A DNA stretch of 64,000 bases from Terriglobia bacterium (GTDB lineage: Bacteria; Acidobacteriota; Terriglobia; Terriglobales; Acidobacteriaceae). The DNA is taken from contig JAIQGF010000019.1 of NCBI GenBank assembly GCA_020072845.1, positions 1-64,000 of the forward strand, read 5' to 3'. Under the pieces are notes generated by a model. It made no database searches. It saw only the letters and a program-made list of their open reading frames with translations, and was not told the origin of the DNA. A program made the translations under genes and the position numbers. Below are positions 2,760 through 48,248 of this stretch, piece after piece (position 1 is the first letter of the stretch; every line of letters starts with the position of its first letter).

Positions 2760-3560
2760 ATGGTTCGTTTGTACTCGATCCTTTCTTTCGCCCGCGGGCG
2801 TTTTGCCGGCCGGTTCGTTACTCCCGCGCTGTTGGTCGGGGTTGCCGTGCTGCTGACGATGCAAGTTCCGGACGTCGAACTGCATTCGTTCTTCAGCATT
2901 TTTCTGGCGGCGGTTGCGGTTGCGGCCTACGTGGGCGGATGGCAGGCGGGCGCCATTGCCTCGCTCTTTTCATTGATCGCGAGCGACATGTTTTTCCTGT
3001 CCCCAACCTGGGCCACGGCCGCTCAGGGCAGCGTCATGACGCGCGTCCGTGCAGCGCTGCTGATCGACAACCCCAGCGACTGGGTCCGCCTGATTGCCTT
3101 CGCCTTTACCGCATCTGTAATTTGCCTGCTGGCCGCGCTCATCGCGCGCAAGGAGCAAGCCTTGCATGGGGCGCAGCAGTTCCTGACCGAACAGCAGCAC
3201 GAGATGGAATTCCTCAAGAGCACTGCCAAGATCTGGTCCTGGGAATACGATTTGCAGACCTGTCGTGTCACCTGGACCAATATGTACAGCCCGGTGGTGC
3301 TGCGTCGCGAGGAGCCGCTGGACAGCTGGTTGGATTCCATCCACCCCGACGACCGCGTCCGCGTCAAGAATGCCCTCGACCGTGCGCTGGTGGAAGGTGA
3401 GTTCGAAGCTGAATACCGCGTCCTGGTGCACGGATCCGAGCCGTGCCGCATCATGGGCCGCGCCGTGCTTTATTCCATCGGCGGCCACATTGCTGGCTTG
3501 CGCGGCATCGAGATTGATCGCGAAATGCGCGCCGCCGCCGCTTCCCCTTCGCCGGTCTAA
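2760..3560 (+). CDS. DUF4118-like membrane domain with PAS domain, no kinase
   Basis: A 266-residue protein with three to four hydrophobic segments in the first 130 residues (pattern resembling DUF4118, the KdpD-type sensor membrane module), a short coiled linker near 130-150, then a PAS-like domain: [18 protein letters not shown], the SIHPDDR signature, and the PAC-like [10 protein letters not shown] segment. It ends there with no histidine kinase, GGDEF or other output. It starts divergently from the CPBP gene and converges on uvrA with overlapping stop codons (3557-3560). It is probably a sensor that acts through a partner, or a remnant of a longer kinase. No frameshifted continuation is visible. 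Confidence 0.75.
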
Positions 3561-6665: not shown

Positions 6666-6887
6666 ATGACCGAACATTGTTGCCAAACGCTGCGCGACGC
6701 GGTGGACGGAGACGCGATCCTCAATCAGCCGCTGCGCACCATGCACGGTCGCATTCTCAACGAAATCGATTCCGACTATGCCGTGCGCTCGCCCGAGGAC
6801 CGGCCCAATCTGTACCCGATCAATTTCTGTCCGTTTTGCGGACGAGCGGTGTCGCGGACCATCTGGAACGCGGAAAAGAAAAAATAG
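6666..6887 (+). CDS. Small protein with CPFCG motif, unknown function
   Basis: A 73-residue protein beginning MTEHCCQTLRDAV and containing a C-terminal NFCPFCGRAV segment. With the HCC pair near the N-terminus this could bind zinc, although only one CxxC knuckle is complete. The frame is open upstream to 6582, but that extension runs through a dispersed CCCGAGCGAAGTCGAGGGG repeat, so the ATG at 6666 is preferred; no strong ribosome-binding site is seen. I do not recognise the family. The residue composition (no low-complexity, sensible hydrophobic spacing) suggests a real gene. Confidence 0.5.
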   Translation: MTEHCCQTLRDAVDGDAILNQPLRTMHGRILNEIDSDYAVRSPEDRPNLYPINFCPFCGRAVSRTIWNAEKKK

Positions 6888-21230: not shown

Positions 21231-21651
21231 CTTTTTCAAGGCTTCAGGCTCCAGGCGTCTGGCTTCAGGCCGGAAATTCTCGCACATCGTCGAAAAGTGG
21301 TGACCACAGCGCCGCAGGCGCGGCAGAGCCTAGCCCGGCACGTAAGTGCCGGGACTCCGCCTAACAAATGTTCCTGAGTCCCGTAGGAGTCTGTGTCGTA
21401 ACCTCAAGGTGATGAAAAAAGTGGTCCGAAGCACGCGAAATCAGCCCGCGAAGCGGGCGCAATTCGTTAGCCCACCGCGGCAGCGGTGGGGAAAGTGGAT
21501 CAATATCGCAGAGCGCCAGCGGCGCGGCACACTTACGACACAGACTCCGTAGGGACGGCACCAACCACACAATGGTTCGCATCCTGAGCGGTTGGGGTAG
21601 TTGTCTGAACCACAAAATCTTGCCTGAGCCCTACGCCTGTAGCCTGAAGCC
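21231..21651. other. argG-argH gap filled with repeats
   Basis: The 421-base gap holds no convincing gene. From left to right it has a GGCTTCA array (21238-21272), two hairpins (GCGCCGCAGGCGC at about 21309 and CCGGCACGTAAGTGCCGG at about 21334), copy 1 of the 162-bp structured element (21386-21548) and a GCCTGAAGCC array that abuts the argG stop codon. Confidence 0.7.
21386..21548. repeat. Structured terminal-inverted-repeat element, copy 1
   Basis: Ends are a perfect 16-bp inverted repeat, GGAGTCTGTGTCGTAA (21386-21401) against 21533-21548. Inside are hairpins CCCGC-GAA-GCGGG (about 21454), CCCACCGC-GGCA-GCGGTGGG (21471-21490) and GCGCC-AGC-GGCGC (about 21513). Compared with copy 2 at 41532, both arms of the terminal stem and both arms of the central hairpin have changed together. 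There is no transposase; the element is about 163 bp. Confidence 0.85.
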
Positions 21652-37204: not shown

Positions 37205-37440
37205 TCGCGCGCAATGGTTGGTGATAACAGCCCTTATCACTTGTTACGACTGGCACCGCGCTGAACTGCGTCAGCGTTGGCTTGTTCGGGAATCCGGCCT
37301 TCATGTTCCTCCGATACGTGATTATTATGCGGATACCCCACCCGGCGAGGAAAAGCAGGGGCAGCGACAATTGTGGCTGCACAAGCCCACCTAGCGGTTT
37401 TCATGTTGCCCTCCGGCCTCATTACCTGCTCGCCGGTTCT

Positions 37441-37539
37441 TGGCGGAAGCGTGTCGGAGTCGAACCGACCCTCGGCAGCGCAAAGCTGTCGAGCGCTGGT
37501 TTTGAAGACCAGGAGGATCACCGGACCCCATGCGCTTCC
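37441..37539 (-). tRNA. selC: tRNA-Sec (UCA anticodon)
   Basis: A 99-base selenocysteine tRNA. The minus-strand sequence starts GGAAGCGC and ends CGCTTCC-G-CCA, with CCA encoded. The D-arm is the long form (GGGGTC-CGGT-GATCCT), the anticodon stem CTGGT/ACCAG holds loop CTTCAAA with anticodon TCA (reads UGA), the variable arm is long (about 25 bases) and the T-arm is GGTCGG-TTCGACT-CCGACA. The sequence is very close in layout to E. coli selC. It implies that the organism makes selenoproteins; selA, selB and selD are not in this window. Confidence 0.96.
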
Positions 37540-37597
37540 GTTTAGCTCCAGGCGCCGGTTGGCAGGCTGTCGGCGGGAGAGTGATCAGCACATCGTG

Positions 37598-37626
37598 AGT
37601 GTAGCGCGCGCGGGCGCGCCCGACAA
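37598..37626 (-). promoter_or_regulatory. Candidate promoter for selC
   Basis: On the minus strand TTGTCG (37621-37626), a 17-base spacer made of GC alternations, and TACACT (37598-37603). It would start transcription about 50 bases before the tRNA 5' end. The two hexamers match consensus at 4/6 each. Confidence 0.45.
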
Positions 37627-37666
37627 AATCGGGTCACGTCCGTGCGCCCTCTGGGCATGGTCGCGG

Positions 37667-38506
37667 GTGCGGCCCTACGGACTGAGCCTGTTCTATCCGC
37701 TGGTCAACATTGCACAGTTCTCCGCGGCTTACGTTTTGTTGCCTGCCGTGGCGCTGGCCATTGCGGCGCTGCTGTATTGGCGCTGGACGCGGGAGCTTCC
37801 GGTACTGAAGTTTGCCGCCGCCTGGTTTCTGCTTACCCTGCTGCCGGTCATCGGTGAATTCAGTTGGGTGCAACTGCACGACCGGCATCTCTACCTGCCA
37901 TCGTTCGGGATGGCGCTGATGCTGGCCGTGCTGTTGCAGCGTGCGGCGGGGTGGGCGCGTTTCCGCTCGGAGCACGCGCCTGCCATCGCGGCCCTGGTGA
38001 TTGCGGCGGTGCTGGCGGGCATCAGTGCCCGCGAGGCGCGGTTCTGGGACAACGGCCTCGTCCTCTGTGAACGCGCGGTTGCGGTGGCGCCCGCCAATCC
38101 CGACGCGCTCAGTCTGCTGGCCGACACCTATGACTTTTCAGGGGCGCCGGACAAGGCCGCGGCCACCCTGCAGTCCGCGTTGCAGTACTATCCGCGGTCG
38201 GCGAAGTTCAACTTCGCCCTGGCGCACCGCTATTACACCTTGCGCCGCTACGCCGCCGCCCGGCCCTACCTGGAACGCGCGCTGGCCATCGGCGGCGACA
38301 ACGACACCCGATCCACCGCGCTCTACGAACTCGCCATGCTGGAGCAAACAGATGGGAAGCGCGACGCGGCCGAGCAGCACCTGCGCGAAGCCATCCGCCT
38401 CGCGCCGCACATCGCCGGCTGCAAACGCGCGCTCGCCACGCTGCTGCGGGCGCCCGCTTCAGCCACTGCATCACCGGCGGCGCCCCCCGCCGACCGCAAG
38501 CCGTAA
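37667..38506 (+). pseudogene. N-terminally truncated TPR membrane glycosyltransferase-like gene
   Basis: About 280 residues that read as the C-terminal half of a large membrane protein: a few transmembrane helices (FYPLVNIAQFSAAYVLLPAVAL; ELPVLKFAAAWFLLTLLPVIG), the HDRHLYLPSFG motif typical of the TMTC/O-mannosyltransferase-like TPR proteins, then TPR-like repeats (PDALSLLADTYDFSGAPDKAAATLQSAL; RDAAEQHLREAIRLAPHIAG). The N-terminal catalytic half is absent; upstream is selC and its promoter. The frame opens before 37667, but without homology. I call it a remnant. A GTG at 37667 could still start a short product. Confidence 0.6.
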
Positions 38507-40815: not shown

Positions 40816-41496
40816 ATGAGTCTCAAGCTTGGTGATGTCGCTCCCGATTTCGAAGCCCAAACCACCGAAGGCCGCATTCACTTTCATGATTGGATCGGCA
40901 ATTCCTGGGCGGTGCTGTTTTCCCACCCCAAGGACTTTACCCCCGTCTGCACCACCGAACTCGGCGCCATGGCCAAACTGAAGCCCGAGTTCGACAAGCG
41001 CAACACCAAAATCATCGGCCTCAGCGTCGATCCCGTCGACAACCACAAGAAATGGTCGATCGACATCAAGGAAACCCAGGGCCACGCGCCGAACTATCCC
41101 ATGATCGGCGATACCGACCTGTTGATTTCCAAGCTCTACGGCATGCTGCCTGCCACCGTCGAGGGCTCGTGCGAGGGCAGGACGGCTGCCGACAATATGA
41201 CGGTGCGCAATGTTTTCGTGGTCGGTCCCGACAAGAAGATCAAGCTGATCCTCGTCTATCCCATGACCACCGGGCGCAACTTCGACGAAGTGTTGCGCGT
41301 GATCGACTCACTGCAACTGACGGCCAGGCACAAAGTGGCGACTCCGGCCAATTGGCAGCAGGGCGATGACGTGATCATTGCCGGCTCCGTTTCCAACGAC
41401 GATGCCAAGAAGATATTCGGCACGTGGAAGGAGCCGCGGCCGTACATCCGCATCGTTCCGCAACCGAAAGAAGCGGCTGAGAAGAAGTCGGCTTAA
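40816..41496 (+). CDS. 1-Cys (Prx6-type) peroxiredoxin
   Basis: Thiol peroxidase reducing hydrogen peroxide, alkyl hydroperoxides or peroxynitrite. The 226-residue protein begins LKLGDVAPDFEAQTTEG; the peroxidatic Cys45 is in SHPKDFTPVCTTELG. The length, the long C-terminal extension (VATPANWQQGDDVIIAGSVSNDDAKKIFG) and IIGLSVDPVDNHKKWS place it with Prx6/AhpC-TSA type. A second Cys in EGSCEGR may form the resolving bond, which would make it two-Cys in mechanism. AAGGAGGT lies 5 bases before the ATG, so it should be strongly translated. Confidence 0.94.
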   Translation: MSLKLGDVAPDFEAQTTEGRIHFHDWIGNSWAVLFSHPKDFTPVCTTELGAMAKLKPEFDKRNTKIIGLSVDPVDNHKKWSIDIKETQGHAPNYPMIGDTDLLISKLYGMLPATVEGSCEGRTAADNMTVRNVFVVGPDKKIKLILVYPMTTGRNFDEVLRVIDSLQLTARHKVATPANWQQGDDVIIAGSVSNDDAKKIFGTWKEPRPYIRIVPQPKEAAEKKSA

Positions 41497-41531: not shown

Positions 41532-41693
41532 AGAGTCTGTGTGAGAACTCACTTTCGGAAGCGCAGTGGTCCAAGCGCACCCACGATCCAGCCGCGGAGC
41601 GGCGGAACTCGTTAGCCCAGCGCGGCAGCGCTGGGGAAAGTGGAACAGAATTATCTAGCGCCAGCGGCGCGGTACAGTTCTCACACAGACTCT
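41532..41693. repeat. Structured terminal-inverted-repeat element, copy 2
   Basis: The most complete copy. Terminal arms AGAGTCTGTGTGAGAACT (41532-41549) and 41676-41693 are an exact 18-bp inverted repeat. Internal hairpins are CCGC-GGA-GCGG (about 41592), CCCAGCGC-GGCA-GCGCTGGG (41616-41635) and GCGCC-AGC-GGCGC (about 41658). It lies inside CAGTCGT/CGACTG arrays that are themselves inverted around it (41505-41531 and 41697-41728). It occupies nearly all of the peroxiredoxin-phzF gap. Confidence 0.9.
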
Positions 41694-41733: not shown

Positions 41734-42627
41734 ATGACTACGACCCCACGCCGGTTTCAGTACGTGCAGGTGGACGTCTTCACCTCGCATCCGCTCGAGG
41801 GCAACGCGCTCGCCGTGTTCACCGACGCGCGCGGGCTCAGCGACGCGGAGATGCAGGCGCTGGCGCGGGAAACCAATTTTTCCGAGACCACGTTCGTTCT
41901 CCCGCGGGACGCGGCCACCGAACGTGAGCGCGGGCGCCGCGTCCGCATCTTCACCACCCGGGAGGAGCTTCCGTTCGCCGGACATCCCACCCTGGGTACC
42001 GCAACCGTGCTGCGCGGCGCGGATGGCGCCGGCCTGGTCGAACTGGACCTCAACGTCGGCAAAATTCCCGTCCGCTTCACCACCGGCGCTGATGGCCTGG
42101 TCTTCGGCGAAATGCAGCAGCGCGATCCCGAGTTCGGCCCCCGCCACGCTCGCGAGGACGTTGCCCGGGCCGCCGGCCTGAAGCTGGACGACATCGCCGA
42201 CGACCTCCCCATCCAGACCGTTTCCACTGGCTTGACCTTCACCATCGTGCCGGTGCGCACGCTCGCGGCTATGCGCGCGCTGCGCCCCGACTTGAAGGTC
42301 GCTGCCGAGTACCTGGAACGCAGCGCCGGCAAATTTTTTTATTTCGTGAGCCGCGAAACCGTGGACAAGTCCGCCCGCCTGCACGCGCGCATGATCTTCT
42401 ATAACGGCGAGGACCCCGCCACCGGGTCCGCGGCGGGCTGCACTGCGGCGTGGATGGTCGCGCACGGCGTCGCCCAGCCGGAGGAGAGCGCCGCCATCGA
42501 GCAGGGAATCGAAATCATGCGGCCGAGTCGCCTCGTCGTCCGCGCCGGACGCGAAGGTGACCGGATTGTCACTGTGCGTGTCGGTGGAAATTCTGTGGAG
42601 GTCATGCGCGGCGAACTGTTTCTCTGA
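41734..42627 (+). CDS. PhzF-family isomerase
   Basis: A 297-residue member of the phenazine-biosynthesis-like (PhzF) fold. The family acid is in ETNFSETTFV (Glu51); GHPTLGTA near 86 and the DPATGSAAG motif near 230 are intact. Many members are epimerases or isomerases of small amino- or carbohydrate-derived substrates and are not involved in phenazine synthesis; the substrate here is unknown. The ATG at 41734 is 5 bases after an array with no clear ribosome-binding site. Confidence 0.88.
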   Translation: MTTTPRRFQYVQVDVFTSHPLEGNALAVFTDARGLSDAEMQALARETNFSETTFVLPRDAATERERGRRVRIFTTREELPFAGHPTLGTATVLRGADGAGLVELDLNVGKIPVRFTTGADGLVFGEMQQRDPEFGPRHAREDVARAAGLKLDDIADDLPIQTVSTGLTFTIVPVRTLAAMRALRPDLKVAAEYLERSAGKFFYFVSRETVDKSARLHARMIFYNGEDPATGSAAGCTAAWMVAHGVAQPEESAAIEQGIEIMRPSRLVVRAGREGDRIVTVRVGGNSVEVMRGELFL

Positions 42628-48142: not shown

Positions 48143-48248
48143 CCAGCCGCGGAGCGGCGGCATTCGTTAGCCCAGCGCGGTAGCGCTGGGGGAAGTGGAA
48201 CATAATTATCGAGCGCCAGCGGCGCGGCACAGTTCTCACACAGACTCT
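48143..48248. repeat. Structured terminal-inverted-repeat element, copy 3 (left end lost)
   Basis: From CAGCCGCGGAGCGG to the right arm AGTTCTCACACAGACTCT (48231-48248). The spacing from CGTTAGCCC to the right end is 83 bases, the same as in copy 2. The central hairpin is CCCAGCGC-GGTA-GCGCTGGG. The left terminal arm is absent and replaced by unrelated sequence. Confidence 0.8.

Follow-up and report, generated by a model that had tools for sequence, protein, structure and literature searches.

The textbook hallmark of bacterial tRNA-Sec, the '8/5' tRNA, is an acceptor stem of eight pairs. This eight-pair acceptor has been described as the chief determinant of SelB binding (PMC7609411, citing Baron and Bock 1991). 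Departures are on record: tRNA-Sec with a 12-bp acceptor/T-arm helix has been reported from Epsilonproteobacteria (PMC4607533) and from several phyla (PMC5330540). Both sets are 7/5 folds, those in PMC5330540 showing a bulge, an additional base or the lack of one. Among selenoproteins, FdhA was found in 67 of 75 Sec-using organisms (PMC1794560), and Sec peroxiredoxin (TxxU) and Prx-like thiol:disulfide oxidoreductase (UxxC) are listed selenoprotein families (PMC13188914). Sec use by Acidobacteria has already been published, with three families and four selenoproteins (PMC1794560), and three known selenoproteins are recorded for Occallatibacter riparius (PMC12013277).

The locus described here lies in a window of 64,000 nucleotides, the whole stretch of DNA that was analysed, from a Terriglobia bacterium. 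The window is part of contig C19 of a 4.23 Mb genome in 27 contigs that is rated 100% complete. ARAGORN identified a single tRNA gene in the window, a tRNA-SeC on the minus strand at 37441-37539 with anticodon tca at position 35. The Rfam model RF01852 matched at 37445-37539, also on the minus strand, with 66.8 bits (E 1.9e-11, gathering score 47 bits) and was covered in full. A model of the relatives' tRNAs, R1, which includes the window gene itself, gave 104.8 bits. ARAGORN and RF01852 therefore agree with the earlier note, which had called a tRNA-Sec with a TCA anticodon from the letters of the sequence and gave no strand for it. When the whole genome was searched with RF01852, the window gene alone exceeded 50 bits. 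The runner-up (48.8 bits, C11:343027) was rejected as a tRNA-Ser with anticodon tga, and further candidates, L003-L008 of the 14 genome matches, were tRNAs for Ser, Leu, Cys, Gly and Trp. No second tRNA-Sec was seen among the candidates examined in this search.

The gene is 99 nt long including the encoded CCA, and its parts were assigned on the minus strand by direct reading and by alignment of relatives. The acceptor stem is formed by GGAAGCGC (37532-37539) on the 5′ side and ACGCUUCC (37445-37452) on the 3′ side, giving seven standard pairs and one mismatch. The D-arm (37514-37529) has a stem of six pairs (GGGGUC/GAUCCU), closed by the 4-nt loop CGGU. It is followed by the anticodon UCA, which reads UGA (37503-37505), a long variable arm (37470-37495) with up to nine pairs and one mismatch by reading, a T-arm of five pairs (GUCGG/CCGAC) with a 7-nt loop (37453-37469), and the discriminator G with the encoded CCA (37441-37444, the CCA itself at 37441-37443). 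The long D-arm, long variable arm and encoded CCA noticed earlier are thus all present. Between discriminator and T-loop all 8+5 positions exist, 12 of them as standard pairs.

The helices were tested on an alignment of 16 tRNAs, the window selC and 15 from relatives (15 distinct, a subset of the 28 known from the survey below). As drawn, 96.4% of the 360 cells held a standard pair, and 14 of 24 pairs were changed on both sides. Controls in which the helices were slid gave at most 53.6% paired cells and at most five pairs changed on both sides, and none of 500 shuffles matched the observed values. The D-stem was paired in 100% of cells, with five of its six pairs changed on both sides, and the T-stem was likewise paired in 100% of cells. 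The variable arm was not scored as a helix because the relatives fail to align there. A crude scan found no sigma-70-like promoter near the gene. We conclude that 37441-37539 is a genuine, complete selC gene, and infer that its tRNA is functional.

The mismatch lies at the eighth acceptor position, where C (37532) stands opposite A (37452). This position accounts for 12 of the 13 unpaired cells among the 360, nearly all other pairs being kept. Across 28 tRNAs (the window selC and 27 from relatives) the eighth pair was mismatched in 21: 16 of 17 from its own family, 4 of 9 from the next family and 1 of 2 beyond. The comparison set from outside the group was 51 named tRNA-Sec stretches, retrieved with a DNA pattern in which the first seven bases are fixed. 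The eighth position was C-G in 42 of these and U.C in 9. A mismatch at the eighth pair is therefore not unique to this group.

The earlier note had proposed a search for selA, selB and selD, the absence of which from a complete genome would speak against its call. All three are present in this genome. The selB gene is at C5:7660-9564 (364.7 bits), selA at C27:235-1596 (563.7 bits) and selD at C11:217051-218031, the last scoring about 352 bits when its two matching pieces are joined, or 354.5 bits when read through a TGA. Together with selC they occupy four contigs. Contig C27 is only 4.1 kb long, and since selA sits on this small contig of its own, its assignment to the genome rests on binning. 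A 69.9-bit match on C27 that might have been a second SelD was rejected; it is thiL, thiamine-phosphate kinase. The SelD frame starts MADTKPIRLTEHVKAAGUASKLSP, where U is an in-frame TGA at the position that we take to be the catalytic cysteine. A short repeat-like in-frame insert, AVDRRPSTVDSAIDHRPTAIDSL, was observed in the region C11:217338-217393, between the two pieces matched by the selD model.

The genome contains at least five genes with an in-frame TGA, those for SelD and for four AhpC/TSA-family proteins, which bears out the prediction that selenoproteins would be encoded. Of 12 genome matches to PF00578 (AhpC/TSA) at E<=0.1, four carry one TGA: a PrxQ/BCP-type protein with the motif TPGU (C11:62685-63071), a TGGU peroxiredoxin (C8:216039-216425), and two UxxC Prx-like proteins, with WUPFC (C12:28325-28690) and WUPNC (C8:297431-297820). 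When nine genomes were surveyed with a cut-off of E<=1e-5, exactly one stop, always TGA, interrupted 27 of the 107 PF00578 matches; neither TAA nor TAG was seen. In all 27 the TGA stands at the active-site motif, the interrupted matches being spread over eight of the nine genomes, and the frames are intact after it. Cys homologues exist for the redox-active TGA sites; locus L154, read out of register at a contig edge, was left out of the motif counts. The PrxQ active site has U in G000-G004 and G027. In G005, with selB and tRNA-Sec undetected, PrxQ has TPGC and none of ten PF00578 matches carries a TGA. In G025 the Sec machinery is present, yet a PrxQ-like protein has Cys. In G026 a TPGU peroxiredoxin gene with a TGA directly adjoins the tRNA-Sec gene (L178, about 2760-3391).

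Formate dehydrogenase, which had been suggested as a target, was not found: TIGR01591 had no match in the genome at E<=1e-60. In other genera three matches to this model (G010, G012, G016) carry one TGA each. At the cut-off used, the targets seen here are therefore SelD and the peroxiredoxins. The AhpD-like CMD family has two matches in the genome, with a TGA in neither. It had also been stated that no gene in the window is bridged across an in-frame TGA, and this held in two scans; none of six candidate TGA extensions had a Pfam domain spanning the TGA, upstream extensions being judged by eye. No selenoprotein was seen in the window, and the five TGA genes are on C8, C11 and C12. The consequence for annotators is that at least five genes here, and comparable ones in relatives, will be truncated at a TGA that does not mean stop.

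Sequences after the TGA were searched for hairpins with a simple bacterial-SECIS rule and compared with shuffles. Hairpins beat 95% of shuffles in two of the five genes, the two UxxC genes (0.02 and 0.045); the corresponding values were 0.13 for SelD and 0.445 for PrxQ. The TGGU gene had no hairpin satisfying the simple rule; a longer one is predicted there, with a 7-bp stem, a 15-nt loop and -17.6 kcal/mol. In the WUPxC group (four genomes) the hairpin begins 12 nt downstream of the TGA's first base and has the loop AGUU. Three of its seven pairs were changed on both sides among four sequences, against 0 or 1 in slid versions; 16 of 500 shuffles reached the observed three. The PrxQ hairpin, compared over six genomes, is weakly supported: one pair was changed on both sides, and 37 of 500 shuffles reached its covariation score.

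The distribution of the system was followed in 41 genomes, the genome itself and 40 relatives, with a selB cut-off of E<=1e-70. A tRNA-Sec was found in 28 and selB in 31; both were present in 27, neither in 9, and 5 were discordant (Fisher p 1.8e-5 for co-occurrence, relatedness ignored). In the 29 genomes taken as >=90% complete, 24 had both and 3 neither, and 2 disagreed. The discordant genomes are G001, with tRNA-Sec only, and G004, G010, G032 and G037, with selB only. The last four have completeness ratings of 75 to 90%, so absent sequence is presumably the plain explanation for their lack of a tRNA-Sec. One of them, G004, carries a TGA in four AhpC/TSA genes. The 13 relatives that lacked a tRNA-Sec were searched again with a model made from 16 of these tRNAs, which found none. 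A laxer RF01852 search of the same genomes gave nine matches, which were rejected as eight tRNA-Ser and one tRNA-Gly, and an apparent second tRNA-Sec in G014 was rejected as a tRNA called tRNA-Ile.

The neighbourhood of selC is not a sel operon. In G022, unlike the genome studied here, the tRNA-Sec directly adjoins selB on the same strand (G022:C9:402831-404898). Genes for a 1-Cys peroxiredoxin and for PhzF are in the window at 40816-41493 and 41734-42624, and both are also within about 12 kb of selC in G001, G002, G003, G009 and G021; the neighbourhood is therefore partly kept. Beside selC, the ORF at 37373-38503 is a 5′-truncated remnant of a TPR-protein gene that is without about 263 N-terminal residues, an intact 545-aa relative being present in G003 (L177:6461-8098). 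What looks like the N-terminus of this ORF is a translation of the strand antisense to the tRNA. In G002 the 3′ part of tRNA-Sec is repeated directly over 67 nt (L176:6877-6943), 88 nt downstream from the intact gene (6690-6788); an element that integrates with selC as its attachment site would leave such a copy. The window also contains four Acido-Lenti-1 RNAs (RF01687, 41.9 to 54.7 bits), all on the minus strand, at 21308-21353, 21443-21490, 41590-41635 and 48145-48190. This RNA family is typical of Acidobacteriota, the phylum to which the four copies point.

Taken as sequence evidence, the structure of the tRNA, the three protein genes, the conserved active-site TGAs and the co-occurrence with selB make it almost certain that this genome decodes UGA as selenocysteine, with selC, the machinery and TGA targets in SelD and four AhpC/TSA proteins. 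The selC tRNA would be charged with serine, and SelA would convert this to selenocysteyl-tRNA with selenophosphate made by SelD. SelB would then carry the selenocysteyl-tRNA to UGA codons followed by an mRNA hairpin. Among the recoded UGAs would be the active-site codons of SelD itself and of the four AhpC/TSA-family proteins. For the chemistry of selenocysteine, the reading of hairpins by SelB and the expression of selC, this scheme follows established knowledge.

The same tRNA might instead bring one of the standard amino acids to UGA codons, either serine or cysteine, and so behave like an allo-tRNA or like a tRNA-Cys of the selC* type. The mismatched eighth acceptor pair would fit such a tRNA, and allo-tRNAs have been reported from Acidobacteria (PMC7609411). 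We consider this very unlikely, as selA, selB and selD are all present and the TGA sites are redox-active positions with Cys homologues. The tRNA also has G1-C72, a G discriminator, a 6-bp D-stem with a 4-nt loop, and the 8+5 arrangement, unlike the 12-bp 8/4 or 9/3 allo-tRNAs (PMC7609411). Sequencing errors or pseudogene stops, with the tRNA as a relic, could in principle produce in-frame TGAs: the assemblies are drafts, the gene evidence comes from sequence, and the many copies of PF00578 could include dispensable ones. Errors or decay of this kind would hardly place all 27 interrupting stops as TGA at the active-site motif in eight of nine genomes and leave the matched frames intact beyond them, and compensating changes keep the tRNA helices. 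This explanation is the least credible of those weighed. The mismatch itself might mark a decaying tRNA-Sec in a family that is losing the function, 16 of the 17 family tRNAs being unpaired at the eighth position. This too is highly improbable: the unpaired cells are confined to that pair in all but one case, apart from G001, the genomes that have the mismatch retain selB, the TGA genes are kept in those checked (G000-G003 and G027), and 9 of 51 tRNAs from other bacteria also lack a pair at this position.

Selenocysteine decoding being the preferred reading, the position of the eighth pair can be considered on its own. It is possible, although we lean somewhat against it, that the tRNA-Sec of this family gave up the eighth pair and kept its bases, and that SelA, SelB and EF-Tu read an arm of 13 layers with a fixed mismatch instead of eight paired bases. 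If so, the 'eight-base-pair' rule of E. coli would be a rule of length, or the mismatch itself would be a local identity element. This mismatch, present family-wide, provides a natural test of how long or how fully paired the tRNA-Sec acceptor arm has to be.

Compared with known systems, the window selC resembles the E. coli-type bacterial tRNA-Sec (RF01852) in its UCA anticodon, 6-bp D-stem with 4-nt loop, long variable arm, G discriminator, 8+5 acceptor/T-arm positions and encoded CCA. It differs in its eighth pair, C.A, which leaves only 7+5 standard pairs around the mismatch. This number is shared with the tRNA-Sec of 12-bp arm (PMC4607533, PMC5330540), but where those are described with a bulge or with a base gained or lost, the window selC keeps both eighth-position bases, facing each other unpaired. 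In the extracts consulted we found no published description of an eighth position kept but unpaired in tRNA-Sec. The absence of a formate dehydrogenase at E<=1e-60 sets the genome apart from the 67 of 75 Sec users with FdhA (PMC1794560), and selenium here goes into antioxidant peroxiredoxins, no formate dehydrogenase target being seen. Its selenoproteins and those of its relatives belong to the same families, with the same active-site motifs, as the ones listed in PMC13188914, together with SelD. The Sec system of this genome is of the known, ordinary kind, real and well supported, with one structural oddity, the eighth-pair mismatch that it has in common with its relatives.
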